Source: a gamma proteobacterium symbiont of Ctena orbiculata (GTDB lineage: Bacteria; Pseudomonadota; Gammaproteobacteria; Chromatiales; Chromatiaceae). From it: 62,209 bases of DNA. A program made the translations under genes and the position numbers. Below are positions 4,248-56,147 of the stretch, in pieces (the first letter of the stretch is position 1; each line of letters begins with the position of its first letter). A model generated the notes under the pieces. The model did no database searches, was not told where the DNA came from, and saw only the letters and a list, made by a program, of their open reading frames with translations. Where the stretch lies: NCBI GenBank assembly GCA_003058525.1, contig QBVD01000025.1, positions 1 to 62,209 on the forward strand, written 5' to 3'.

Positions 4248-4330
4248 TCATTCCCCCATTAGAAATCTTTAAGACACATGACGAGACGCTATATAGACAC
4301 TGTAGCGATGTTCCGCGATGATGGCATCTA

Positions 4331-4594
4331 GGGCCTGTTAACACTAATCCAATCGACTCTGCTGGAGCTGCTTTTTTACCCAGCAAGGCAGAATGAGCGA
4401 GGTCTAGCCGTGCTAAATGAGCGAATGATAACGCCGCTGGGTGGAAAAACAGCCCAGCCCTTCGGGTTGTGCCTGAAAATGCACCACTCGGCGTTGCTCG
4501 TCGCTCATTTGGAATCACCAAACTTCACTCCTCGCGCCTTGATTGGCGCATTTTCAGACACAACAGAGCCGATTGGATTAGTGTTAACAGGCCC
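4331..4594 (+). mobile_element. MITE-like element, copy 2 (complete)
   Basis: A complete 264-bp element with near-perfect terminal inverted repeats of about 25 bp starting GGGCCTGTTAACACTAAT. It is flanked on both sides by TA (4329-4330 and 4595-4596), consistent with a TA target duplication or a palindromic tip. It has no coding capacity and is the inverted twin of the copy at 1-246. It sits in the pilT/yggS divergent promoter region (553 bp between the genes) and could affect expression of either. The remaining 4595-4800 is AT-rich leader sequence with no feature I can name. Confidence 0.88.
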
Positions 4595-45730: not shown

Positions 45731-46002
45731 GTTCTCACACTCTAGCGTGAGAATACATACAGGAGGCAGATTAACAGAACACTGCATGGGTTCCCACGAT
45801 CCCCCATGGGAACCAAAAAAACAGATGTAGGGTGCGGCTTGCCGCACCATCTACCGGTTACCACGCTTGGGATGGTTCTGATAACGGTTCGGTGCGGCAA
45901 GCCGCACCCTTGTCACATCATATTTTACTCGTTCCCATGCTCCAGCGTGGGAATGCATACAGAAGGTAGGTTAGTATGCAATATGGGTTTCCACGGGAAA
46001 CC
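45731..46002. repeat. Palindrome cluster upstream of the lpxR-like gene
   Basis: The 596-bp gap 45508-46103 is packed with palindromes. GTTCTCACACTCTAGCGTGA (45731-45750) and GTTCCCATGCTCCAGCGTGG (45931-45950) belong to one family; weaker relatives lie at 45789-45814 and 45985-46002. Two copies of the GGTGCGGC-type palindrome are at 45831-45848 and 45891-45908. The first about 150 bp (45508-45660) show nothing I can identify. Confidence 0.82.
45822..45910. repeat. Left flanking direct repeat of lpxR-like gene
   Basis: An approximately 89-bp unit bounded by GGTGCGGCTTGCCGCACC (45831-45848) and GGTGCGGCAAGCCGCACC (45891-45908). It recurs in the same orientation at 47260-47348 with only a few differences. 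Weak similarity continues on both sides (for example CATCATATT just after each). Confidence 0.88.
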
Positions 46003-46103: not shown

Positions 46104-47213
46104 ATGCCATACAACCATCGACGCAACTCTTCTTTTGGATTCATCCCGTTTGGTTTACTCCGGGCATTAATCTTGTCATTGGTTCAGATAGGACACGCAG
46201 AGAGCGACTGGGATATGCGTGCCAAAGATGAACCGTATGACACAGGCTGGCAGATCTATTTCGATAATGACATCTCCTTCAACGACGAAAAGGACCGAAA
46301 TTATACGGGCGGCCTTGCACTCACTTTAACAGGTAAGCGTGCCGCCGATTACTGGTTCTCTCTCGACCCATGGCTGAATAGTCTGGATCGACTGAGCGGT
46401 TTCGGCAAACCCCAGGCAGGGGACAATGGCATCCACAGGCATGCCATCGAATTCGGCCTAACCATTTTTACCCCGGATGATATCGCTGAATCAGAGCCTA
46501 TTGAGAACGATCACCCCTATGCCAACATGCTGTTCCTGTCCAACAGCCAGAGTCGTGTCTACCCCTCACGTGGTTTGCTTTTTCAGTCGACTCTGCTGCT
46601 GGGAGTCCTGGGCACGGATGTAGGTGAGGAAGTGCAAAAAGCGATGCACAACCTGACCGACTCAGACCAACCTCGGGGATGGAGCAATCAGATCTCAGAT
46701 GGCGGTGAGTTGACGGCCAAATACTCACTCTCCGTTCAGAAGATGCTGTTGAGTCGTCAGGGAGGCCTTTCATATGATGTCAGAGCCGGGCTTGAAGCCG
46801 GTATCGGTTATACGACGGACGTCAACGGCGCAATCAGTTTTCGGCTGGGGAAACTCAATACGCCCTGGTGGCGATTTACCCCTCATCTATCCGAATACAT
46901 CAGCTTTGGACAAACATTCGGACAAACTACCGATCATGGACACACCCGACCGGAATTTTTTCTCTGGGGTGGATTGAACCTGAAATACCGTTTTTACAAC
47001 GCCATCCTGCAAGGCCAGTTTCGCGACAGTGCAGTGACATTCAACCGGGATGAATTGGAATCTGTGATTCTGAATGGATGGCTGGGTATCACCAAAACAT
47101 TCAGCAACGGAATGGGTATCAGCTTTGTTATACGCAAGCAGAACAATGAGATCGAGAACAGCGGCAAGGATGACCCTTTCTGGAGCGGACTGATTATCAG
47201 CAAGACCTATTGA
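46104..47213 (+). CDS. LpxR/DUF2219-family outer membrane lipid A deacylase-like protein
   Basis: 369 residues. A signal peptide (about 1-32) is followed by the family opening WQIYFDNDISFNDEKDRNYT, where LpxR has its Asn-Asp catalytic/metal region, and repeated beta strands ending in DPFWSGLIISKTY. LpxR removes the 3'-acyloxyacyl chain of lipid A from outside. The family includes uncharacterised members, so activity is inferred. It is bracketed by near-identical repeats and preceded by a fossil of a second copy. Confidence 0.8.
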   Translation: MPYNHRRNSSFGFIPFGLLRALILSLVQIGHAESDWDMRAKDEPYDTGWQIYFDNDISFNDEKDRNYTGGLALTLTGKRAADYWFSLDPWLNSLDRLSGFGKPQAGDNGIHRHAIEFGLTIFTPDDIAESEPIENDHPYANMLFLSNSQSRVYPSRGLLFQSTLLLGVLGTDVGEEVQKAMHNLTDSDQPRGWSNQISDGGELTAKYSLSVQKMLLSRQGGLSYDVRAGLEAGIGYTTDVNGAISFRLGKLNTPWWRFTPHLSEYISFGQTFGQTTDHGHTRPEFFLWGGLNLKYRFYNAILQGQFRDSAVTFNRDELESVILNGWLGITKTFSNGMGISFVIRKQNNEIENSGKDDPFWSGLIISKTY

Positions 47214-47259
47214 TCTCTTCTATTCCCATTGTTTCTCATTTCCACGGGGGACCTAAAAA

Positions 47260-47348
47260 CGGATGTAGGGTGCGGCTTGCCGCACCATCTACCGGTTACC
47301 ACGCTTGGGATGGTTCTGTTAATGGTTCGGTGCGGCAAGCCGCACCCT
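47260..47348. repeat. Right flanking direct repeat of lpxR-like gene
   Basis: The partner of 45822-45910, with its two palindromes at 47269-47286 and 47329-47346. It fills most of the gap between the lpxR-like and thpR genes. Confidence 0.88.
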
Positions 47349-47385: not shown

Positions 47386-47910
47386 CTATTCCAGTGCCCA
47401 GCGCCGCAACACCTGATAACGTGTCCCGGATGAACCCGGGTTCGCCGAAGACGCCAAGACAAACTCGCTCACCTGCCAGACAATAGGCTCTGCCAGCTGT
47501 TGCGGGGCAACCCGGCGCGCCTTCCTGTAAAGGGTGACATGGGGCTTATAACTGCGCTCCTCCGGTTCATGCCCACAACCGGTCAGGCCATTGTTCAAGT
47601 CCACAACCAGTTGGCTGAGCACTGGGGGCGTCTCTGCCGGTGAGGCCCAGAATATCCTGGGTCTCGACCAATAGCCGGTATGATCAATCGACAACTCGAT
47701 CGGCGCCCCCCTGATACCATCGGCGACATTTTCGATACAGCGCTTTTGGGATGGCGCTATCTGACCGAGAAAGACCAGGGTCATATGCAGATCCTCTGCA
47801 ATATGACGGCGCCCTTCTCCCGGCTCGGATGTATGCGCCAAGGCACTCAGGCGATACCGCACCTCCTCGTCCGGCCACAGGGCAAAGAAATAACGCTCCT
47901 CACTCATCAA
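47386..47910 (-). CDS. thpR: RNA 2',3'-cyclic phosphodiesterase ThpR
   Basis: 174 residues of the 2H phosphoesterase fold with both HxT motifs: HMTLVFLGQI and HVTLYRKA. YFFALWPDEEVRYRL is the usual N-terminus. The family (also called 2'-5' RNA ligase LigT) opens 2',3'-cyclic phosphates on RNA ends. It is 147 bp from pncC on the same strand. Confidence 0.93.
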   Translation of the reverse strand: MMSEERYFFALWPDEEVRYRLSALAHTSEPGEGRRHIAEDLHMTLVFLGQIAPSQKRCIENVADGIRGAPIELSIDHTGYWSRPRIFWASPAETPPVLSQLVVDLNNGLTGCGHEPEERSYKPHVTLYRKARRVAPQQLAEPIVWQVSEFVLASSANPGSSGTRYQVLRRWALE

Positions 47911-48057: not shown

Positions 48058-48573
48058 TCAATTGGAGGTGCGATGCGCGCTCAGTATACCCTCAAGTTGT
48101 TGCAAAGCGCAGACCACCGCCTGCCAACGCACCTGGTTGCGATCACCATTGAAACAGTGCCGCTGGGCCATTCCCTCGTTATCCTTGACCTGCCAGGCGA
48201 AGCAGACGGTTCCCACCGGCTTTTCCTTGCTGCCGCCACCGGGCCCGGCAATCCCGCTGATCGCCACTGCAACGTCGGCACCGCTTTCAGTCAATGCTCC
48301 TTGCGTCATCTCCAGGACGCAGGCTTCACTTACCGCACCGGATTGTTGCAGGGTTGTTGACGAGACGCCCAGCATTGTCTGTTTCGACTGATTGCTGTAG
48401 GTCACAAATCCGCGGTCGAACCAATCGCTGCTCCCAGGCAGATCGGTCAAAATCTTGGCAAGCCATCCACCGGTGCAGGACTCGGCGACAACCAGACGAT
48501 AACCCTGTTGGCGCAGCCGGCCGGCACATACTCCTGTTAGCTCTTCAACGGCTTGAGCCGAGGCAATATCCAT
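48058..48573 (-). CDS. pncC: CinA C-terminal/PncC-type nicotinamide-nucleotide amidohydrolase
   Basis: 171 residues matching stand-alone CinA-C: LVVAESCTGGWLAKILTDLP (substrate Ser/Thr loop), YSNQSKQTMLGV, AVAISGIAGPGGGSKEKPVG. The enzyme deamidates NMN to NaMN in pyridine nucleotide recycling. It directly abuts the amphi-Trp gene (stop TAG, then ATG), so it appears to be the last gene of the GAK operon. In many gammaproteobacteria it instead precedes recA, which is not in this window. Confidence 0.93.
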   Translation of the reverse strand: MDIASAQAVEELTGVCAGRLRQQGYRLVVAESCTGGWLAKILTDLPGSSDWFDRGFVTYSNQSKQTMLGVSSTTLQQSGAVSEACVLEMTQGALTESGADVAVAISGIAGPGGGSKEKPVGTVCFAWQVKDNEGMAQRHCFNGDRNQVRWQAVVCALQQLEGILSAHRTSN

Positions 48574-48849
48574 CTATTTCACTTTGACCTTTAAATTTTT
48601 GCTCTTTTTCGGCCTATCCGTTTCGACCTGCCAGGTAATGCGTAGATTGATGCGATGCCGTTCCTCATCCTGAGTGGCGGCGACTTTCAACTGCAGCAAT
48701 CCATTTGGCTGCATAACCATCTCGCCATCCTCATCGCTGAGGGTCAGTTTACCTTTTGCGATCCCTTGAGAGATCGCCTTTAGAAGCGCCTGAATCGACT
48801 CTTTATCCTGCAACGATTCATGACGGAAGTTTTTTTTACCCTGTCTCAT
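48574..48849 (-). CDS. Amphi-Trp domain protein (GAK system)
   Basis: 91 residues. The opening KKNFRHESLQDKESIQALLK, the middle GKLTLSDEDGEMVMQPNGLL and the alternating strand RINLRITWQVETDRP, with its single Trp in an amphipathic beta strand, match the small amphi-Trp domain (TIGR04354). That domain names the A of the GAK system. It is cytoplasmic with a basic tail. The protein's biochemical role is unknown; it is expected to work with the ATP-grasp and HprK-like proteins of the same operon. Confidence 0.85.
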   Translation of the reverse strand: MRQGKKNFRHESLQDKESIQALLKAISQGIAKGKLTLSDEDGEMVMQPNGLLQLKVAATQDEERHRINLRITWQVETDRPKKSKNLKVKVK

Positions 48850-48899
48850 GATTGTTTTCCAACTCTACATCGATTAAGCATAGGCTGGTCAGAGATTGC

Positions 48900-50246
48900 C
48901 TATGTAAATGACTTATAGTCGAACACCTTGATATGCGGATAGTCGGTACTGATACCCATCACAAGCTGTTTCGGATGAAAGATGGTCACTGCGGCACCCT
49001 TTCCTTTGAGCCCTTCCTTAATGCGAGTATAGCGGTCGATAGTGGCGTCGCATTCAAAGTGGATCATCCCCTTACGCAGCATGATCCTTTGTCCGTAATG
49101 ACGGTTGGCATGGCCATGCACTATGGTGTGGATGCCCGCATCGTGCATCAAGTCGCTCCCTTTGCGTGTCAACGGCATATCCACGTCCCGGTATTTCGTG
49201 CGAATCAGATTGGCCATCGGTCCATAGTAAAATTCAAAAATCTCATCTTCGACACTGTCCCTGAACTCCTCGTTGATGTACTTGATGCCTTTACGCTCGA
49301 TCAGTTTCGCCATCCTGTCGTCAATACCTGCGTGGACAAAGAGAAAAGAGCCCTGGCGGTAGACCAGTTGCATCTGCTTGAAGAACCAACTGAATTCTCC
49401 CTTAGGCTTGAGAAACAGCTGTTGCCATTTCATCACAGCAGCATAGACATGGCGCAATGAGAGACCTACCGCCTCGCAGTCCGATTCAAAGTCGTCTATC
49501 TTCTCCTTGAGACGTTTCAGCTCCCTGGCCATACGTTTATCAGGCATGACCCAGCTCGCTATTTTCGGAAACTCCTTAAACCAGCGCTTCGGCGGGTAGA
49601 GTATGCGTCGGCAGGTGCGTGTAGGCGGCACACCCTTCAATGCATCCTTATCCTGAAGATACTCATCGACGATTTCACGCAACATGGGTATGACCTTGCT
49701 GCCCATGCGTATAAAAAAGTGGTCGTGGCGAGGATCGGGATCCATGCCCACCGACGCAATACCCAACTTGACGCGCAGATCGTGATTACCCGCCAGCAGC
49801 ACAACCCTGGCTCCCAGCTGTTTCAGCTGCTGTATCGACCGCAACAGTTTTAGGTTGCTTGGCCCCTTGTCGAAACAGTCCCCGCCGATGACGAAAATGG
49901 CATCTTTGCCATGTGAGGTCAGCTTCAACGCATGCTGTTTACTCCCTGTCTTTTTCACCCCACCCGATGCCACCAGAGAGGCGATCAGGGCATCCGCGTC
50001 GGCATGCAGGTCGGAGAAGAAGTAGAGCTTGCGTTTTGGCCACTGCCATTTACCCCGCTTCACCACTTCTCTCAACAGCCCCGCCGCTGAACTGCGCTGC
50101 CCCCTCTCTTTGACAACCGAACGCTGTCTGCCCAAGAGCCACGGCTGACTGTTTGTAGGCAGTTCCACATCAAGCCATTTCCGACCCTTGTATACCGGCA
50201 GATACCGGGTGTGACGTTCGATACTGTTTTTGTTCTTAGTCGTCAA
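48900..50246 (-). CDS. Metallophosphoesterase of the GAK operon
   Basis: 448 residues from TTG 50246, chosen because AGGAG stands six bases upstream; it overlaps the preceding gene by 11 bases. Metal-site motifs are FFSDLHADADAL, VIGGDCFDKGP, LLAGNHDLRV and the distal IVHGHANRHYG, i.e. a complete calcineurin-like centre. A helical insert (about 180-310) separates the motifs and is unusual in length. The substrate is unknown; location among kinases and phosphatases suggests a phosphorylated small molecule or protein of the same pathway. Confidence 0.88.
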   Translation of the reverse strand: MTTKNKNSIERHTRYLPVYKGRKWLDVELPTNSQPWLLGRQRSVVKERGQRSSAAGLLREVVKRGKWQWPKRKLYFFSDLHADADALIASLVASGGVKKTGSKQHALKLTSHGKDAIFVIGGDCFDKGPSNLKLLRSIQQLKQLGARVVLLAGNHDLRVKLGIASVGMDPDPRHDHFFIRMGSKVIPMLREIVDEYLQDKDALKGVPPTRTCRRILYPPKRWFKEFPKIASWVMPDKRMARELKRLKEKIDDFESDCEAVGLSLRHVYAAVMKWQQLFLKPKGEFSWFFKQMQLVYRQGSFLFVHAGIDDRMAKLIERKGIKYINEEFRDSVEDEIFEFYYGPMANLIRTKYRDVDMPLTRKGSDLMHDAGIHTIVHGHANRHYGQRIMLRKGMIHFECDATIDRYTRIKEGLKGKGAAVTIFHPKQLVMGISTDYPHIKVFDYKSFT

Positions 50247-50940
50247 ATGATTCTCCTTTCGAGCGGATCTTCCACTCTCCAGTCAGATGCTGCCATGATC
50301 CATCCGGCAGACGTTCGAGAAAAACCGGTCGGCAATGATACATACTCAGTGCCGCAATCTGATCAAATGACAATACACCGAGATGGTGGGCGGCATGACG
50401 AAAGGCAGCACCATGACCGACAAACAACTTCACGCTATCCGACTTCACTTGCGATTGCAGTTCTAAAAGCCGGTGCTCCATGTGCTCCGCCACCCGTTGG
50501 CCGGCATCCATGAGTGACTCCGCCCCCTGAAGCGGCAGTCGATAGTGGCTGTCGGACTTCCAACCAGCCGGCGGCGGCGAAAACCGGGGATCGTCCCGCA
50601 ACACCGACTCAATCTGTTGCAACGACAGGTTGGCCGCTGAACCCAGAGAACGCTCGGCCAGTGCATCGTATGATTCGATCTGCAATCTATCCTGACTCGT
50701 AATCTGCAATCCCTTGCGAATCATTTCAGCGGTCTGCCAACCACGCAACAAGCGCGAACTGTCGATTACCGGATACAAGCGCCATTTGAACATTTCGAGG
50801 ACACCCTGAATCAGGGTTACCGAGCGCTCTGCCTGCTCTGCCCCAACCCCGGTCAGGGGATAGGGTTGCAGTGCACTCGGGGTATCAGGCAGTTGGTGAT
50901 ACTCGCCATGACGCAAGATGGCGGCTATCAATCTAGCCAC
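50236..50940 (-). CDS. Histidine phosphatase (phosphoglycerate mutase-like)
   Basis: 234 residues, probably from GTG 50940. The phosphohistidine motif is LRHGEYHQ near the N-terminus, the second Arg in DSSRLLRGWQTAEMI, and the second His in LFVGHGAAFRHAAHHLG. It belongs to branch 1 of the histidine phosphatase superfamily. Substrate is unknown. It lies between the metallophosphoesterase (overlap) and the phosphatase-Nudix fusion (58 bp). Confidence 0.85.
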   Translation of the reverse strand: MARLIAAILRHGEYHQLPDTPSALQPYPLTGVGAEQAERSVTLIQGVLEMFKWRLYPVIDSSRLLRGWQTAEMIRKGLQITSQDRLQIESYDALAERSLGSAANLSLQQIESVLRDDPRFSPPPAGWKSDSHYRLPLQGAESLMDAGQRVAEHMEHRLLELQSQVKSDSVKLFVGHGAAFRHAAHHLGVLSFDQIAALSMYHCRPVFLERLPDGSWQHLTGEWKIRSKGESFDD

Positions 50941-50998
50941 GACTCAGCGCCATACAAGACAGAGGGTGTTCGTTGATCAAGACCATGCGTTTGACGAC

Positions 50999-51964
50999 CT
51001 ACCCTTTCAATTGCTTGGCCAGGGCTTGTATCATCGGTTTCAATTCAGCCTGCTTGACCCTTTTCATCGCCTGTTTAGGCGCCAGCCACTCGCGTCCGCG
51101 ATGATGCTCCTCCCACTCGTCTTCCGGTAATTCGCGGGTAACCTGCATCGGGTAGACACTCACCGTGCATTCTGCACCCCATTTTTCATAGGAATAGGCG
51201 CCTATGGGCTCTTCAGCAACCTCCCCCTCGACACCCGCCTCCTCCAAGGCCTCTTTTGCTGCTGAATCCTGCAGGCTCAATGCAGGCTCGCTGATTCCTT
51301 TCGGCAATACCCAATGCTTCCGCTTACTCGACATGACCACCAGGATTTCAACCTCACCCTCCTCCATCCGATAAGGAATCACCGAGGATTGTTTGTAGTA
51401 ATAGGCCGGTCGATCCCGCATCTCAGTGCCATGTTCATCGGGAAACGGAAACTTCTTGTCCATACTGCTCGGGCGAACGATGGACAGCAGCTCACCGTCC
51501 CCTGCCTTCAGATCAATCCAGTCATCCGGCATTTCAAGATGCGCCAATGTTGCGGTGGGAATCAGTTTGCCGTCACTGGGCAAAGGGATGCGTTCACCGT
51601 GCAGATACTCTGTCAGCATCTCCAATCCCGGGTTGTGTCCCACCAACATGACCCGCTTGTTGTCAGGTGGCACATCCGAGAGTACCCGCAACAATTCACC
51701 CACATTGGCGGCATAGATGCGCCGATCCTGTACGATGGCATAGGCATCGCCACCCATCGCCTTCACCGTCTTCTGAGCAGTCACGATGGCACGCTCTGCG
51801 GGTGAACTGATGACATAATCGGGCTGTAACTGCCGCTGCAGCAACCACACCCCCATGCGTTGGGCGCCACGTTTGCCGCGATCCTTTAGCGGGCGCTTGA
51901 AATCCTCTAACTGTTGACTCCAATCGGATTTCCCGTGTCTGAGCAACATCAATTCTCTAGTCAT
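50999..51964 (-). CDS. Histidine phosphatase-Nudix hydrolase fusion
   Basis: 321 residues. Residues 1-160 are SixA-like (LLRHGKSDW, SPAERAIVTAQ, VGHNPGLEMLTEYL). Residues 180-320 are a Nudix domain with box PKGISEPALS then KEALEEAGVEGE; the first Glu of the box is Leu and the Arg is Lys, but the catalytic EE pair is present. Mycobacterial MutT1 has the same two domains in the opposite order. A diphosphate hydrolysis followed by monophosphate removal on one substrate is the natural inference. Confidence 0.87.
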   Translation of the reverse strand: MTRELMLLRHGKSDWSQQLEDFKRPLKDRGKRGAQRMGVWLLQRQLQPDYVISSPAERAIVTAQKTVKAMGGDAYAIVQDRRIYAANVGELLRVLSDVPPDNKRVMLVGHNPGLEMLTEYLHGERIPLPSDGKLIPTATLAHLEMPDDWIDLKAGDGELLSIVRPSSMDKKFPFPDEHGTEMRDRPAYYYKQSSVIPYRMEEGEVEILVVMSSKRKHWVLPKGISEPALSLQDSAAKEALEEAGVEGEVAEEPIGAYSYEKWGAECTVSVYPMQVTRELPEDEWEEHHRGREWLAPKQAMKRVKQAELKPMIQALAKQLKG

Positions 51965-52009
51965 TGTCTGTCTGCCTCATACAGTTCTTAGTTGCTGGGT
52001 GTCTGTTTG

Positions 52010-53140
52010 CTAGGGCCTGTCATCACTCATCCATAACTTCAAACACAACTCTTTCAACCCGGCAAAATCTATTTTACCTGTCACCTCATAGATTGGGACA
52101 CGCTTCAGCAGATCCAGATAAGGAGCGGGCTGAAGCGGTTCATCATCCCTTATAAACTCACCAAGGCTATCCTGAAAGAATGGCCCTGGAGACTTCATCA
52201 CCGCATTCAGTAATTCACTGCGATGCGTAATATCGACCTTTGTCATCTTAACCGGTGCACGCTCATCCCTGCTCCAGTTCAGGATCACCATCGCCTCAAA
52301 GGATACGGGTGTCGAGGTATCGATACGATCGCTGCCATACAGCCGTTCTACATCCACATCGAACTTCTCTTCAAGCTCCCATAGCTCCTGTTGCGGCAAC
52401 TTCAGCAGCTGTTCCCTTCTCTGTTCATCGATCAGCGGTGAAAGCCGCGAACTGTTCACCACGGTGCCTGGATTGATACGGGGAAGCTTGGGGATACCCA
52501 CCGCCTCCACCCCGACGCCCCGACGCCGCAGGAAGAGCCGGTCGTTGGTCAGATAGCGACTCTTCGGGTGTTCCATCAGATGCAGCATCAGGGTCGACTT
52601 GCCACCCCCGGAAAATCCGGCCATGGCGATCGCATGATTGTTCAGGATCAAGCCGGCGGCGTGACAGATCAGCCACTCCCGCTGCTGCAGCCAGTTCATT
52701 ACCTGTGAATTGATGAAATTGATCAGCTGGTTGTCATTTTCCTCACAAGGTCCGACCGCGATGCGCCACTGCTCGCTCTGCAGAAACAGCATGCCGGTGC
52801 GCACCTTGAGCACCAGGCGGCCATCCGTCAGTTCCACATAGGCATCCTTGCGCCCGCTTTTACCCGCTTCGCGGCGCCAGTCGATAAACGGCAGACCGGT
52901 CTCGAGCTTGTCGCTCTCGATCGCAGTGACTTCGATGGTCGCCAGACCCCTGGTCTTGGGCAGATGATGAAAATAGCTTGCCAACCGATCCAGCAGCGAC
53001 TGGCTGTTGGAACGAATCACCAGGACACAATCACCTATGTTCAGCTGCAACGGCTCCCCGCACAGTTGCACTTGTTGCATAAGCAGCTTGGCCGCATCCC
53101 CGGCACTGCTGACACCAACCCACTCGGCAGGTATGTTCAT
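52010..53140 (-). CDS. HprK-related kinase B (GAK system)
   Basis: 376 residues. The C-terminal half resembles the catalytic domain of HPr kinase: LICHAAGLILNNHAIAM (conserved His about 160), P-loop GFSGGGKST at 175-183, then SRYLTNDRLFLRRR and LPRINPGTVVN. It lacks the HPr context: no ptsH or other PTS gene is near. This fits the HprK-related kinase B group that marks GAK loci. Its ATG overlaps the stop of the ATP-grasp gene (ATGA). The target is unknown. Confidence 0.87.
   Translation of the reverse strand: MNIPAEWVGVSSAGDAAKLLMQQVQLCGEPLQLNIGDCVLVIRSNSQSLLDRLASYFHHLPKTRGLATIEVTAIESDKLETGLPFIDWRREAGKSGRKDAYVELTDGRLVLKVRTGMLFLQSEQWRIAVGPCEENDNQLINFINSQVMNWLQQREWLICHAAGLILNNHAIAMAGFSGGGKSTLMLHLMEHPKSRYLTNDRLFLRRRGVGVEAVGIPKLPRINPGTVVNSSRLSPLIDEQRREQLLKLPQQELWELEEKFDVDVERLYGSDRIDTSTPVSFEAMVILNWSRDERAPVKMTKVDITHRSELLNAVMKSPGPFFQDSLGEFIRDDEPLQPAPYLDLLKRVPIYEVTGKIDFAGLKELCLKLWMSDDRP
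52012..52033. repeat. Possible degenerate MITE tip over the hprK-like 3' end
   Basis: TAGGGCCTGTCATCACTCAT and its next two bases match the MITE left tip with TA in 19 of 22 positions. It overlaps the last codons and stop of the HprK-like gene. It may be chance or an old insertion that reset the C-terminus. Confidence 0.35.
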
Positions 53141-54027
53141 ACGTCGAGTTCCTCCAGCATATAGGCCACATAACGGGATGGCACATCGATGCCCATACCC
53201 TCTTTCGCCCCACGAAAACCACCGAATGCGGAGACCTCGAAGACCACCGGTCCCTGTTCGGTCTCCGCCACATCGACAGTGGTAAAATCGAGACCGAAGA
53301 TTGCCTGCGCCTTGCGGGCAAGCGTCACCAACGCCTCGTCGGCCTGATAACCCTCGTAGTGACCGCCGCTCCTGATGGTGGTATTCCAGGTCCCCGATTT
53401 ACCCACCCGGGCGTAGCTACCGAGATATTCCCCATCGAGAAACACCATTCCCAGATCCCTGCCCGGTAGCGCGAGCTTTTTCTGCATGTACATCACCGGA
53501 TTGTCCACCCGAAAGGCCTCGATCTGTTGCAGCAGCTGTTGCGGATCCTGATCGGCATCGATCAACGTCATCCCTCTGGCCTTGGTGGAGTAGAGCGGTT
53601 TAAAGACAGCCGATCCGAATGCAGTGACCGTTTCGGCAGCGATGGCAGTGCTCTCGGTGATGCGGGTTGGGGGCATGGGAATACCTGCATTGTAGAGCGA
53701 CAGGGTGCAGCTGAGACGGTCGATCAAGCGGATGATACGCTCTACCTTGCTGAACACCCGCACCCCGGCACGCTGCAACTGGCGCAACATCTCCAGTCTG
53801 TCCAGGACATGGGGACTGTACTCATCGCTGATCTTTTTCACCACGACCCCATCGAGACGGGTCAGATCATGCTCCCGATAGACGAGTCTGCCGCTGTCGA
53901 GTTCGGCACAAACCTCGGCCATGTCGATCACCAGGCGAAAGCCTGTGGCCGCCTCCACCGCGTCCGCCAGGGCCTCCGTGGACCATTTTCCAGGGATGCC
54001 GACCACCCCGATCTTCGGTTTAGCCAA
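53137..54027 (-). CDS. GAK system ATP-grasp enzyme
   Basis: 296 residues of RimK-like ATP-grasp type. IGVVGIPGKWSTEALADAV opens a pre-ATP-grasp domain, AVFKPLYSTKARGM holds the ATP-contacting Lys, PVMYMQKKL the purine-site Glu/Lys region, and VVFEVSAFGGFRGA the metal-binding Glu/Asn-like end. Members ligate or phosphorylate carboxylates or phosphates; substrate unknown. The gene overlaps the downstream kinase by four bases and the upstream PhoU-APH gene by eight, so the three are one translational unit. Confidence 0.88.
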   Translation of the reverse strand: MAKPKIGVVGIPGKWSTEALADAVEAATGFRLVIDMAEVCAELDSGRLVYREHDLTRLDGVVVKKISDEYSPHVLDRLEMLRQLQRAGVRVFSKVERIIRLIDRLSCTLSLYNAGIPMPPTRITESTAIAAETVTAFGSAVFKPLYSTKARGMTLIDADQDPQQLLQQIEAFRVDNPVMYMQKKLALPGRDLGMVFLDGEYLGSYARVGKSGTWNTTIRSGGHYEGYQADEALVTLARKAQAIFGLDFTTVDVAETEQGPVVFEVSAFGGFRGAKEGMGIDVPSRYVAYMLEELDV

Positions 54028-55657
54028 TGAATATCTCCTTTACGGGCACCACAAATGGGCGCTTGGATTTGGATTCGCTCTCGAGCAGTCTCTCCATCAG
54101 ATAGGTGGCGCGCGAGAACATGCGCTCCGACAGGGATTTATCAAGAATAAATCGGGTTGAAGTGGCAAAGGAGCGGATCAGGCCCATCGCCAGCCGCAGC
54201 TCGAAGCTCTCATCCCCCTGTTTGCGGGCAAAGGCCCTGGCGAAGCGATAGAAGGCGTGGCAGAGATCCATGATCCGCTGCCTGACCCGGGGATCGAACA
54301 CCCGCAGCCGGTAGTTGGAGACCATGAAGACGCTGACATCCTGCAGATAGTCCATATAGCTGGAACGGTGCAGATCGATGAAATTGATACGTTTCTCCCG
54401 CGGGTCGAAGATGATGTTATCGACGTTGAAATCACCATGGATATAGACGGAGAACGGCGCCTTGACGTCAGACTCGAAGCGTTGCATCCGTTTCAGGAGA
54501 TCATCGAATGCGGGAAACGCTACGCCTCCGATATTGACCGCAGGCTGTCTGAATTCGGGATGGATGGCATACACATCCCCCATGCGCTTCGCCAGCTGTT
54601 TCATATACCCGGCGGAGACAGGTTTTTTGGTCTTGGTCTCAAGCCATACCTGTGTCAGGGTCTTGGTCAGATGATTCAGGGCCTGCTGAAGCAGCGCATC
54701 CGAACCGTCCAGCAGGATCTGTTCGAAGGTCTGCCCCGCCAGGTGCTCAATCAACAGGGCCGCGGAATCGCCCTGTTTCTGATAGGCGAGGATCTTCGGC
54801 GCCAGTCCGGGAAAGATATCGTGCCAATCATTGACCCGCTGCTTCTCCTCCTTCAGCTTACGCTTGCGGCCATCCTTGAAGATGGCGTGGTAGCCGCTGC
54901 CCTTTTCATTGCTGCTGAGCGCGTTGATGGCACTGCCCGATTTGGTCTCTGCGATCGGTTTGAACGCCAGTTCATCGATGTCGTTCACTGTCTTGAGCTC
55001 TGTCACCGAGGCATTGAATGCATGGTAGCGGTCGGTACTGAAATGCTGCCCCATCGACGCAGAGATGATCGCCTCGCTGACCCGCAACATGGCATTGCCC
55101 ATCTGCTCGATAATATGCGCCAACATGATGAGCGAAATCCGATCCGCCGGATGCTTCTCCTTTTTCAGCAGCCGTGAGTATCGTTTGAGCTGTTTTTGGT
55201 AGGCATCGACCAGGTGTCGTTCCACCTTGCCGATCTTCAGGGCGCGGCGGGTATCCTTGGCCGACAACGCGGGTTCGATCAACTCCAGTCCATTGCTGAC
55301 CCGGTCGATCATGGCGAGAAAATCCTTCACCTTCAGCATACCCCGATGCTGGACATGGGCGCTCTGCATCACCGCATCCCGGCAAAGCTCCACAATCCGC
55401 TCCAGCTGGCTGGCGATCACCTCCACCGATCTCAGTAACTGGTAATCCGAATCCTGCCCGCGGGATGAAGACATCTCTCGCAAACAGTGGTTATGGATGC
55501 TCAGCTTCAGGTTTTCCACATACCCCTGACGGTCCAGCAGCCGCATCGGGATGGTTGCCGTAGGCAGGGTCAGATAATCTTCCAGCAGGGAGAGGTGGGT
55601 GGTGGTCTCAGTCAGCAGAAAATGAAGATTTTCCTGGATGCTTTTGGCGAGGGGCAT
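54020..55657 (-). CDS. PhoU-like domain fused to aminoglycoside phosphotransferase-type kinase
   Basis: 545 residues from ATG 55657, one base after the Nudix stop; an in-frame extension to 56011 merely shadows that gene. Residues about 1-225 are all-helical and PhoU-like, with LIMLAHIIEQMGNAMLRVSE in the position of the PhoU ERIGD-type helix. The C-terminal part is a protein-kinase-like small-molecule kinase: HGDFNVDN (407-414) is the Brenner/catalytic loop and FIDLHRSS the metal Asp. Both catalytic residues are intact. The natural reading is a kinase regulated by a phosphate-sensing helical domain. Confidence 0.82.
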   Translation of the reverse strand: MPLAKSIQENLHFLLTETTTHLSLLEDYLTLPTATIPMRLLDRQGYVENLKLSIHNHCLREMSSSRGQDSDYQLLRSVEVIASQLERIVELCRDAVMQSAHVQHRGMLKVKDFLAMIDRVSNGLELIEPALSAKDTRRALKIGKVERHLVDAYQKQLKRYSRLLKKEKHPADRISLIMLAHIIEQMGNAMLRVSEAIISASMGQHFSTDRYHAFNASVTELKTVNDIDELAFKPIAETKSGSAINALSSNEKGSGYHAIFKDGRKRKLKEEKQRVNDWHDIFPGLAPKILAYQKQGDSAALLIEHLAGQTFEQILLDGSDALLQQALNHLTKTLTQVWLETKTKKPVSAGYMKQLAKRMGDVYAIHPEFRQPAVNIGGVAFPAFDDLLKRMQRFESDVKAPFSVYIHGDFNVDNIIFDPREKRINFIDLHRSSYMDYLQDVSVFMVSNYRLRVFDPRVRQRIMDLCHAFYRFARAFARKQGDESFELRLAMGLIRSFATSTRFILDKSLSERMFSRATYLMERLLESESKSKRPFVVPVKEIFIG

Positions 55658-55658
55658 G

Positions 55659-56147
55659 TCAGTCGATGACTCCCAGATATGTCGGTGTCGTCGCTTGCGC
55701 AAGACCGGGCAGATGAGGTGCCAATCCCTTGGGGAAGATCTCATGGTTGAGGATATCGGCAAAGGGCACCCACACCACATCGACCTGATGTTTGTCGGGA
55801 TGGTGACCCGATGCGGGTTGATAGCTTGCCGGCAGGGTACAACCGAACAGAAACTCAACCAGATGCCGCACCGAAGGGTAGACCGTATCGCGCTGTTTGT
55901 AGAAATCGGCAATGGCGAGCAGGCTTTCGATCTCCACGGTGGCGCCGATCTCCTCCTCGCATTCACGCACCAGTGCCTGGACCAGGGTCTCGTGCACATC
56001 CTGACCTCCACCGGGAAGGGTGTACCAGGTACCGCGCTGTTGCGCCCATTTCTTCTGCATCAATACCGCATGATCGCGGACGATCACAGCGCGCACGGCA
56101 TTACGGATGTTCGGTTCCAGCCCTTTTTGTTGTGGTCGGTCGTTCAT
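55659..56147 (-). CDS. Nudix hydrolase of the GAK operon
   Basis: 162 residues. The box GGQDVHETLVQALVRECEEE plus IG is fully canonical (G-x5-E-x7-RE-x-EE-x-G). VRAVIVRDHAVLMQKKW and GTWYTLPGGG precede it. It is the first gene of the operon, followed after one base by the PhoU-APH gene. No obvious Shine-Dalgarno precedes ATG 56147. Nudix enzymes cleave nucleoside diphosphates linked to another moiety; which one is unknown here. Confidence 0.9.
   Translation of the reverse strand: MNDRPQQKGLEPNIRNAVRAVIVRDHAVLMQKKWAQQRGTWYTLPGGGQDVHETLVQALVRECEEEIGATVEIESLLAIADFYKQRDTVYPSVRHLVEFLFGCTLPASYQPASGHHPDKHQVDVVWVPFADILNHEIFPKGLAPHLPGLAQATTPTYLGVID

Follow-up and report, generated by a model that had tools for sequence, protein, structure and literature searches.

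The GAK system and its described relatives

GAK, which we take to stand for Grasp/Amphi-Trp/Kinase, is known by name from NCBIfam, where the label is carried by models for the amphi-Trp protein (TIGR04354), the HprK-related kinase B (HprK-B; TIGR04355), an ATP-grasp enzyme (TIGR04356) and CofD_rel_GAK (TIGR04357), a diverged relative of CofD and YvcK. NCBIfam classes them as 'hypothetical equivalog' or 'subfamily' models, and further GAK models may exist there. On GAK function, no paper was found in the open-licence literature, preprints and non-open papers lying outside that scope. The window analyzed here, the 62,209-nt contig QBVD01000025.1 from a gammaproteobacterial symbiont of Ctena orbiculata, is one contig of a 4.74-Mb genome in which all four families score above cut-off, three of them within one operon. 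Whereas NCBIfam lists four proteins, eight operon genes plus the CofD-like gene make up the unit described here, and a fusion of a PhoU domain with an APH-type kinase (PhoU-APH) is as constant as the ATP-grasp enzyme. What this locus holds, in full, is a conserved cassette of eight genes with a wide spread, which is often accompanied by a divergent CofD-like gene and which in some lineages lies amid phosphate-uptake and polyphosphate genes. The name GAK is already known; the eight-gene unit and the irreducible pair within it are new.

Several relatives of these proteins have described activities. RimK adds glutamate to a protein, and the targets of HprK-type kinases are serines in proteins or peptides; HprK-B is presumably kin to the HprK-like kinases of lasso-peptide systems. 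F420 synthesis employs CofD and a RimK-like ligase in one pathway. PhoU, to our knowledge, has lacked a clear enzymatic output. Yeast DDP1, a DIPP-like enzyme, has diphosphoinositides, dinucleotides and polyphosphates as substrates (PMC8064635), and CHAD is described as a polyphosphate-binding module (PMC6537752).

A conserved eight-gene cassette

Nine minus-strand genes at 48058-56147 encode, in this order, a Nudix hydrolase (N), PhoU-APH (P), the ATP-grasp enzyme (G), HprK-B (K), a SixA-Nudix fusion (S), a histidine phosphatase (H), a metallophosphoesterase (M), the amphi-Trp protein (W) and PncC. The successive intergenic distances are 1, -8, -4, 45, 58, -11, 50 and 0 bp when the PhoU-APH start is taken at the ATG at 55657, so that the tight packing described in the initial annotation, with gaps from -11 to +58 bp, is confirmed; so is its recognition of G, K and W as the GAK triad, all three above their NCBIfam cut-offs (Table 1).

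Searches with the window's proteins covered 99 loci, 19 plus 80 from named genome contigs (80 of 498 confirmed), some of them duplicates. Removal of 22 near-duplicates by hand left 77 loci, and dereplication at 85% ATP-grasp identity left 62, of which 39 have flanks of 2.5 kb or longer on each side and are called complete; the presence of ATP-grasp was required of every locus, and locus L038 was excluded from the counts after the first steps. The 39 complete non-redundant loci contain P in 39, G in 39, K in 38, H, M and W in 36 each, S in 27 and N in 22, with all eight genes together in 19. The order N-P-G-K-S-H-M-W recurs in Gammaproteobacteria (Halomonas, Marinobacter and tubeworm endosymbionts), in Alphaproteobacteria (Thalassospira) and in Planctomycetes, where Rhodopirellula has eight of the eight genes and Stieleria seven; it deviates in few loci (L036, L040 and L041). 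By RefSeq annotation, three Rhodobacterales plasmids each carry P, G, K, H, M and W, one of them a Nudix gene and two a CofD-like gene. A chance cluster is ruled out, since distant taxa share these genes in a largely constant order.

The initial annotation had named six families as companions of the triad. Five of them do accompany it (P, H and M, with S and N in a subset of loci), and its view that the phosphate enzymes beyond the triad belong to the system is borne out by their conservation in the 39 complete loci, with most active-site residues invariant. PncC falls away: pncC and the neighbouring thpR are each found in 15 of the 99 loci, all from Thiodiazotropha and close kin (L067-L082), and both were rejected as members. 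The conserved unit is the eight genes plus the CofD-like gene recognized by TIGR04357.

Within this unit, PhoU-APH accompanies ATP-grasp in every complete locus. Two metagenome-assembled genomes (MAGs), from a Methylomonas (L131) and a proteobacterium (L095), have P and G together and amphi-Trp on another contig; HprK-B was not found in either at E <= 1e-20, the completeness of these MAGs not being established. At a further locus (L199), just N, P and G lie within the 20 kb fetched, with a divergent CofD-like gene. Pairwise distances of ATP-grasp proteins correlate best with those of PhoU-APH (r 0.87), the other six proteins giving 0.60-0.74. PhoU-APH and ATP-grasp are the irreducible pair of the system, and because PhoU-APH tracks ATP-grasp best, in presence and in distances, the GAK label omits the most faithful partner. 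A three-protein label is replaced by an eight-gene unit built around the pair of PhoU-kinase and ATP-grasp.

Some cassettes are split or expanded. A downstream HprK-B gene is separated from H-M by about 2 kb in L117 and L143 and by 0.9 kb in L116, and HprK-B was undetected in the sequence covered of L129. By eye, all four have a further Nudix-looking open reading frame (ORF) there, that of L117 without a Pfam match, and in L117, L129 and L143 the split region includes a gene of an Exo_endo_phos-type cluster. In one locus from the window's order (L192), the metallophosphoesterase and amphi-Trp genes are duplicated in tandem.

Kinases and the ATP-grasp enzyme

Residue counts given here and below refer to aligned sequences that include the window's own, and the catalytic role of each counted residue is assumed from knowledge of its family. 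In PhoU-APH, residues H407, D409, N414 and D428 of the APH part are invariant in 93 of 93 sequences. Its profile matches the solved structures of a PhoU protein (4q25, E 4e-10) and an APH kinase (4feu, E 2.2e-6); Foldseek comparison of an AlphaFold model (pLDDT 88.9) likewise retrieves APH (4few, E 2.1e-8) and PhoU (4q25, target TM 0.79). P is a PhoU fold joined to a predicted kinase with the APH catalytic pattern H-x-D...N...D. The helical domain resembles Pseudomonas aeruginosa PhoU at the target TM just given, but in the GAK protein it is fused to an APH-type kinase.

The nearest solved structures of the ATP-grasp enzyme are RimK (E 2e-18) and LysX (E 8e-18). MptN is its second-best NCBIfam match at 141.8 bits (cut-off 350), and rimK_fam gives 94.9 bits (cut-off 143.4). 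The likeness to the amino-acid ligases RimK, LysX and MptN extends across most of the length and includes the ATP-site lysines: K143, K149, D252 and E264 are retained in 99-100 of 100 sequences. The difference lies in the E-V-N motif, whose Asn, present in RimK and LysX and presumably metal-binding in RimK, is replaced by Ser in 99 of 100 GAK proteins and by Thr in one. Amino-acid ligation is predicted for G by this kinship.

HprK-B resembles HPr kinase in its Walker A motif and in a conserved NDR motif; G178, K181 and S182 of Walker A, together with D200, are invariant in 91 of 91 sequences, and HprK_rel_A gives a weak match (24.1 bits). Unlike HPr kinase, the GAK protein forms its own subfamily (TIGR04355), and the search against solved structures at E <= 0.1 returned ABC-type P-loops and no HprK.

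Hydrolases and the amphi-Trp protein

The initial annotation had counted four or five phosphate-removing enzymes; there are four proteins with five such domains. The stand-alone Nudix protein, closest to general MutT-like structures, has E53, R61, E62 and E65 invariant (60/60). The histidine phosphatase, which matches phosphoglycerate mutase structures, keeps R10, H11, R66, E96 and H176 in 84 of 84 sequences, and the metallophosphoesterase, with a weak match to ApaH (E 0.0017), keeps D79, H81, D123, N154, H155, H305 and H379 in 74 of 74. The SixA-Nudix fusion is less uniform. Its SixA half matches 2rfl (E 3e-15) and retains the SixA Arg in 68 and the His in 67 of 73 sequences; for its Nudix half, DIPP1 is the best match among solved Nudix structures (E 8e-15). 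Three Nudix-box glutamates are kept, as in DIPP1 and DDP1, in 72-73 of 73, but the first, in the GX5E step, is replaced, by Leu in 55 of 73, leaving the full box GX5EX7REUXEEXGU incomplete; also unlike DIPP1 and DDP1, this domain is fused to a SixA-like phosphatase.

The amphi-Trp protein is modelled as one helix and four strands (pLDDT 86.4), a fold for which Foldseek gave no match in the PDB at E <= 0.001; the best sequence-profile match is a designed protein (E 0.005). F8 and G33 are the sole invariant positions among 73 sequences. The best candidate phospho-acceptors are H10 (70/73) and S12 (71/73), H10 being lost in three sequences and S12 in two, from four loci in total (L055, L056, L120 and L130). 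HprK-B is retained in all four, and the proposal in the initial annotation that amphi-Trp is the phosphorylated carrier or target is weakened because the kinase persists where its likeliest acceptor residue does not. Amphi-Trp tails consist of 30% K+R, against 16% in the body of the protein (70 tails, near-duplicates included).

The CofD-like gene and phosphate-related neighbours

The CofD-like protein of this genome (TIGR04357, 533.6 bits, cut-off 340) is encoded on another contig, outside the operon; the homologue at L143 scores 533.5 bits. Its cluster is present in 27 of the 77 hand-dereplicated loci and in 16 of the 39 complete ones. Among the 27, the gene stands at the upstream end on the opposite strand in 24, 6.5 kb off in L142, inside the cassette in L036 and directly downstream on the same strand in L058. 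In the own genome it lies about 8 kb from a gene that, read by eye, is ppx-like and whose protein retrieved L096, where the corresponding gene is Ppx-GppA by Pfam.

Clustering of the flanking proteins of the 77 loci without a preset list placed CofD first (27), followed by a PAS/GGDEF-type group named by eye (15), Na/Pi symporter (10), CHAD (10), CorC-like (8), ParA (7), an ABC-transporter group (6) and a second histidine phosphatase (5), with several clusters at 4, including PstS and PPK1. In the flanks of the 62 non-redundant loci, CHAD was counted 10 times, Na/Pi symporter 9, PPK1 4 and PstS 4, and Pfam confirmed CHAD in 10 of 10, PPK1 in 4 of 4, a PstS-type binding domain in 4 of 4 and Na/Pi in 8 of 9. 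A Pfam tally covered 150 of 180 listed flank proteins (the two nearest per side, at least 110 amino acids long, those above 600 excluded beforehand); CofD came first with 13 and CHAD second with 4, and the next families, with 3 each, were mixed, His_Phos_1 being one.

A chance background was estimated for CHAD and PPK1, and the Na/Pi and PstS counts stand without one. For 0.626 Mb of flank, with the CHAD density assumed to be 0.25 genes per Mb at most, a figure oriented on the presence of CHAD in 193 of 398 genomes, about 0.16 are expected (P ~2e-15, or 2e-8 if the ten are counted as the six arrangements that we distinguish), and a PPK1 density from 39 hits in 41 genomes likewise predicts about 0.16 (P 3e-5); these Poisson values ignore the shared ancestry of loci and depend on the assumed densities.

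Some loci form extended islands. That of L096, about 18 kb long, comprises PitA, DUF47, PPK1, PPX, CofD, the cassette, CHAD and ParA; those of L037 and L104 comprise PPK1, Na/Pi, a second histidine phosphatase, the cassette, CofD, CHAD and ParA. At L041, a PPK2 gene lies about 6 kb downstream of a four-gene form of the cassette. CHAD pairs with a ParA-like ATPase, which is present in 9 of 11 CHAD loci and adjacent to CHAD in all seven mapped loci that show both, as well as in the own genome; positioning of polyphosphate granules is a natural guess for this pairing. The own-genome PPK1 gene has as neighbours a CorC-like gene and a pair of two-component genes resembling, by eye, PhoB/PhoR.

A possible phosphate-linked write-and-erase module

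We tentatively read GAK as a dedicated write-and-erase module tied to the phosphate or polyphosphate state of the cell, a reading that is quite possible and that may well prove wrong. It is suggested by the conserved composition of the cassette, the largely intact catalytic residues, the PhoU domain, the phosphate-related neighbours, the DIPP1-like Nudix half and the lysine-rich tails. Through the PhoU domain, the APH-type kinase fused to it would be informed of phosphate or metal-phosphate status, and this kinase together with the ATP-grasp ligase would act as the first writer, making a phosphorylated, ligase-joined product; HprK-B, as second writer, may add a further phosphate. The four hydrolases, with two Nudix domains, two histidine-phosphatase domains and one metallophosphoesterase, would remove or recycle phosphates. 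Amphi-Trp with its lysine-rich tail would be the likely protein partner, whether acceptor, carrier or polyphosphate-granule adaptor. If the reading is true, bacterial phosphate control would gain a pathway of kinases and phosphatases; the reading also offers a concrete hypothesis, in phosphate and polyphosphate handling, for carriers such as Halomonas, Thalassospira, Marinobacter and Rhodopirellula.

A number of results weigh against this reading, in addition to the dependence of the Poisson values noted above. Gene sets around polyphosphate granules and CHAD resemble some GAK neighbourhoods, in that CHAD-ParA, PPK1, PPX, Na/Pi and Pit genes flank GAK in some genomes, but most GAK loci lack such linkage, as does this genome, whose PPK1 and CHAD genes lie on contigs other than the operon's. 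CHAD, PPK1, Na/Pi and PstS are absent from the neighbourhoods of all 16 Thiodiazotropha-like loci (L067-L082) and, by annotation, from the three Rhodobacterales plasmid regions. Genome-wide, CHAD is not enriched with GAK (7 of 14 GAK genomes vs 186 of 384 others). Against 20 non-GAK genomes, which were taken as listed and are no random draw, PPK1 is not enriched either (18/21 vs 18/20), PPK2 is mildly so (19/21 vs 12/20, one-sided P 0.027), and the presence of PPK1 or PPK2 does not differ significantly (21/21 vs 18/20). A replication in the window's order, with a threshold set beforehand at no less than 15% of new loci having CHAD, PPK1, Na/Pi or PstS, sampled 17 of 23 GAK genomes outside the genus and 0 of 20 others inside it; nine loci were dropped for an ATP-grasp at least 97% identical to a known one, and one of the eight new loci, some of which have short flanks (L196 totals 7.6 kb), had such neighbours (L206, with CHAD, ParA and Na/Pi), a yield above the chance estimate and under the threshold. 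The ATP-grasp enzyme shows no kinship to inositol phosphate kinases in the structure-profile search, where its matches are RimK, LysX and their kin, and the substrates of all enzymes in the cassette are predicted ones. The phosphate linkage appears real where seen and is limited to some lineages.

The idea put forward in the initial annotation, which as a whole is partly supported, is a protein modification circuit in which HprK-B would phosphorylate amphi-Trp, the ATP-grasp enzyme would ligate residues onto it and the phosphatases would reverse the marks. The precedents of HprK-type protein kinases and of RimK, which the ATP-grasp enzyme matches, speak for such a circuit, as do the last position of amphi-Trp in the operon in most loci reaching that far, the near-constancy of H10 and S12 and the lysine-rich tails; yet no acceptor is strictly invariant, the four loci without H10 or S12 keep HprK-B, and in the two MAGs with P and G, HprK-B is undetected and amphi-Trp unlinked, so that we consider the circuit not very likely. 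A small-molecule pathway, in which the CofD-like enzyme, an MptN/CofF-like ATP-grasp and the APH kinase would build an F420-like compound with a phosphodiester and an amino-acid tail while the hydrolases would serve salvage or proof-reading, draws on the rank of MptN, a coenzyme glutamate ligase, among the NCBIfam matches, albeit under cut-off, and on CofD_rel_GAK as the commonest flanking gene. That gene, however, is limited to 16 of the 39 complete loci (it may sit elsewhere, as it does in the own genome), the flanks offer no likely cofactor user, flavoprotein families accounting for 3 of 150 proteins, and two protein-type partners, HprK-B and amphi-Trp, are conserved; we regard such a pathway as unlikely. 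The likelihoods given to the phosphate module, the amphi-Trp circuit and the cofactor pathway belong to readings that overlap in part.

Two further explanations fare worse. Two Nudix domains, the weak ApaH-like match of the metallophosphoesterase and, in this lineage, the adjoining pncC could fit a house-cleaning or stress module that clears damaged nucleotides or toxic phosphorylated metabolites, but three conserved ATP-using enzymes and the phosphate-related neighbours would be left unexplained and pncC is not conserved, which makes it improbable. Patchy distribution and plasmid carriage would suit an anti-phage defence island; PADLOC, however, gave two weak partial matches on the eight proteins (Nudix 37.7 bits, APH part 17.8) and none for the other six, the recurring flank genes listed are phosphate rather than defence genes, and the chance of such an island is slight indeed. 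The phosphate-linked module has also a more elaborate form, distinctly unlikely in our estimate, in which GAK would be a bacterial phosphate-state signalling system parallel to eukaryotic inositol pyrophosphates: the PhoU-gated kinase and ATP-grasp would write a dedicated high-energy phosphorylated messenger or a polyphosphate-coupled protein mark, the DIPP-like SixA-Nudix protein and the histidine phosphatases would erase it, and amphi-Trp would read it or carry it to polyphosphate granules.

Distribution

At E <= 1e-60, and with the own genome counted where included, the GAK ATP-grasp is found in 14 of 398 genomes of the phylum and 44 of 210 of the window's order; two other classes, which overlap with the 398-genome set, gave 7 of 78 and 2 of 385. 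HprK-B exceeds its cut-off in 8 of 274 genomes of the class, own genome included, and the weaker HprK_rel_B matches in 120 of the 274 (E <= 0.001) were discarded as P-loop noise. Five of 72,556 plasmid records carry the system; three are from Tritonibacter, and the three that were read are from Rhodobacterales. Among viral contigs, a single pattern match and no relative were found. The patchy spread and mostly constant gene order suggest that the cassette may have been transferred horizontally as a whole. A MAG contig titled 'Halobacteria archaeon' (L085) has a GAK cassette whose ATP-grasp is 66% identical to the window's, with CofD, CHAD and ParA neighbours as in gammaproteobacterial loci; it is probably mis-binned.

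The locus and its surroundings

The window's ATP-grasp shares 97% identity with its counterpart in Candidatus Thiodiazotropha endolucinida, a lucinid clam symbiont. Coordinates and family assignments of the operon genes and of the two neighbours outside the conserved system are collected in Table 1.

Table 1. Genes of the GAK operon and adjoining genes in the window, with family scores and occurrence among loci.
Feature	Coordinates	Strand	Assignment and occurrence
Nudix hydrolase (N), first gene	55659..56147	-	Pfam NUDIX 62.2 bits; in 22/39 complete loci
PhoU-domain and APH-type kinase fusion (P), ATG start 55657	54020..55657	-	APH 44.5 bits and PhoU 25.0 (cut-off 23.5) in one protein; in 39/39 complete loci
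GAK ATP-grasp enzyme (G), RimK/MptN-like, TTG start	53137..54027	-	TIGR04356 428 bits (cut-off 300); in 39/39 complete loci
HprK-related kinase B (K)	52010..53140	-	TIGR04355 334.6 bits (cut-off 200); in 38/39 complete loci
SixA-like histidine phosphatase and Nudix fusion (S)	50999..51964	-	Pfam His_Phos_1 and NUDIX; sixA 50.9 bits, under equivalog cut-off 74.5; in 27/39 complete loci
Histidine phosphatase (H), GTG start	50236..50940	-	His_Phos_1 45.9 bits; in 36/39 complete loci
Metallophosphoesterase (M), TTG start	48900..50246	-	Metallophos 35.3 bits; in 36/39 complete loci
Amphi-Trp protein (W)	48574..48849	-	TIGR04354 68.6 bits (cut-off 31); in 36/39 complete loci
pncC, co-located neighbour outside the conserved system	48058..48573	-	PRK03661 215.8 bits (cut-off 212); in 15/99 loci
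thpR (RNA 2',3'-cyclic phosphodiesterase), neighbour of pncC outside the conserved system	47386..47910	-	TIGR02258 102.8 bits (cut-off 65.7); in 15/99 loci

Promoter and terminator scans gave matches no more numerous than in shuffles. The first 249 bp or so of the contig (1-249) recur inverted at 4328-4575 with 97-98% identity, and between the two copies lie an ORF with ankyrin repeats and one for a T2SSE-type ATPase; the arrangement reflects either a mobile element or an effect of assembly at the end of the contig. Closer to the operon, two direct repeats of 107 nt, 92% alike, stand at 45804-45910 and 47242-47348 on either side of a plus-strand gene for an LpxR-family outer-membrane protein (46104-47213). 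The copy that was read contains two short palindromes built on GTGCGGC, and the repeats are possibly an element like the repetitive extragenic palindromes (REP) or the miniature inverted-repeat transposable elements (MITE).

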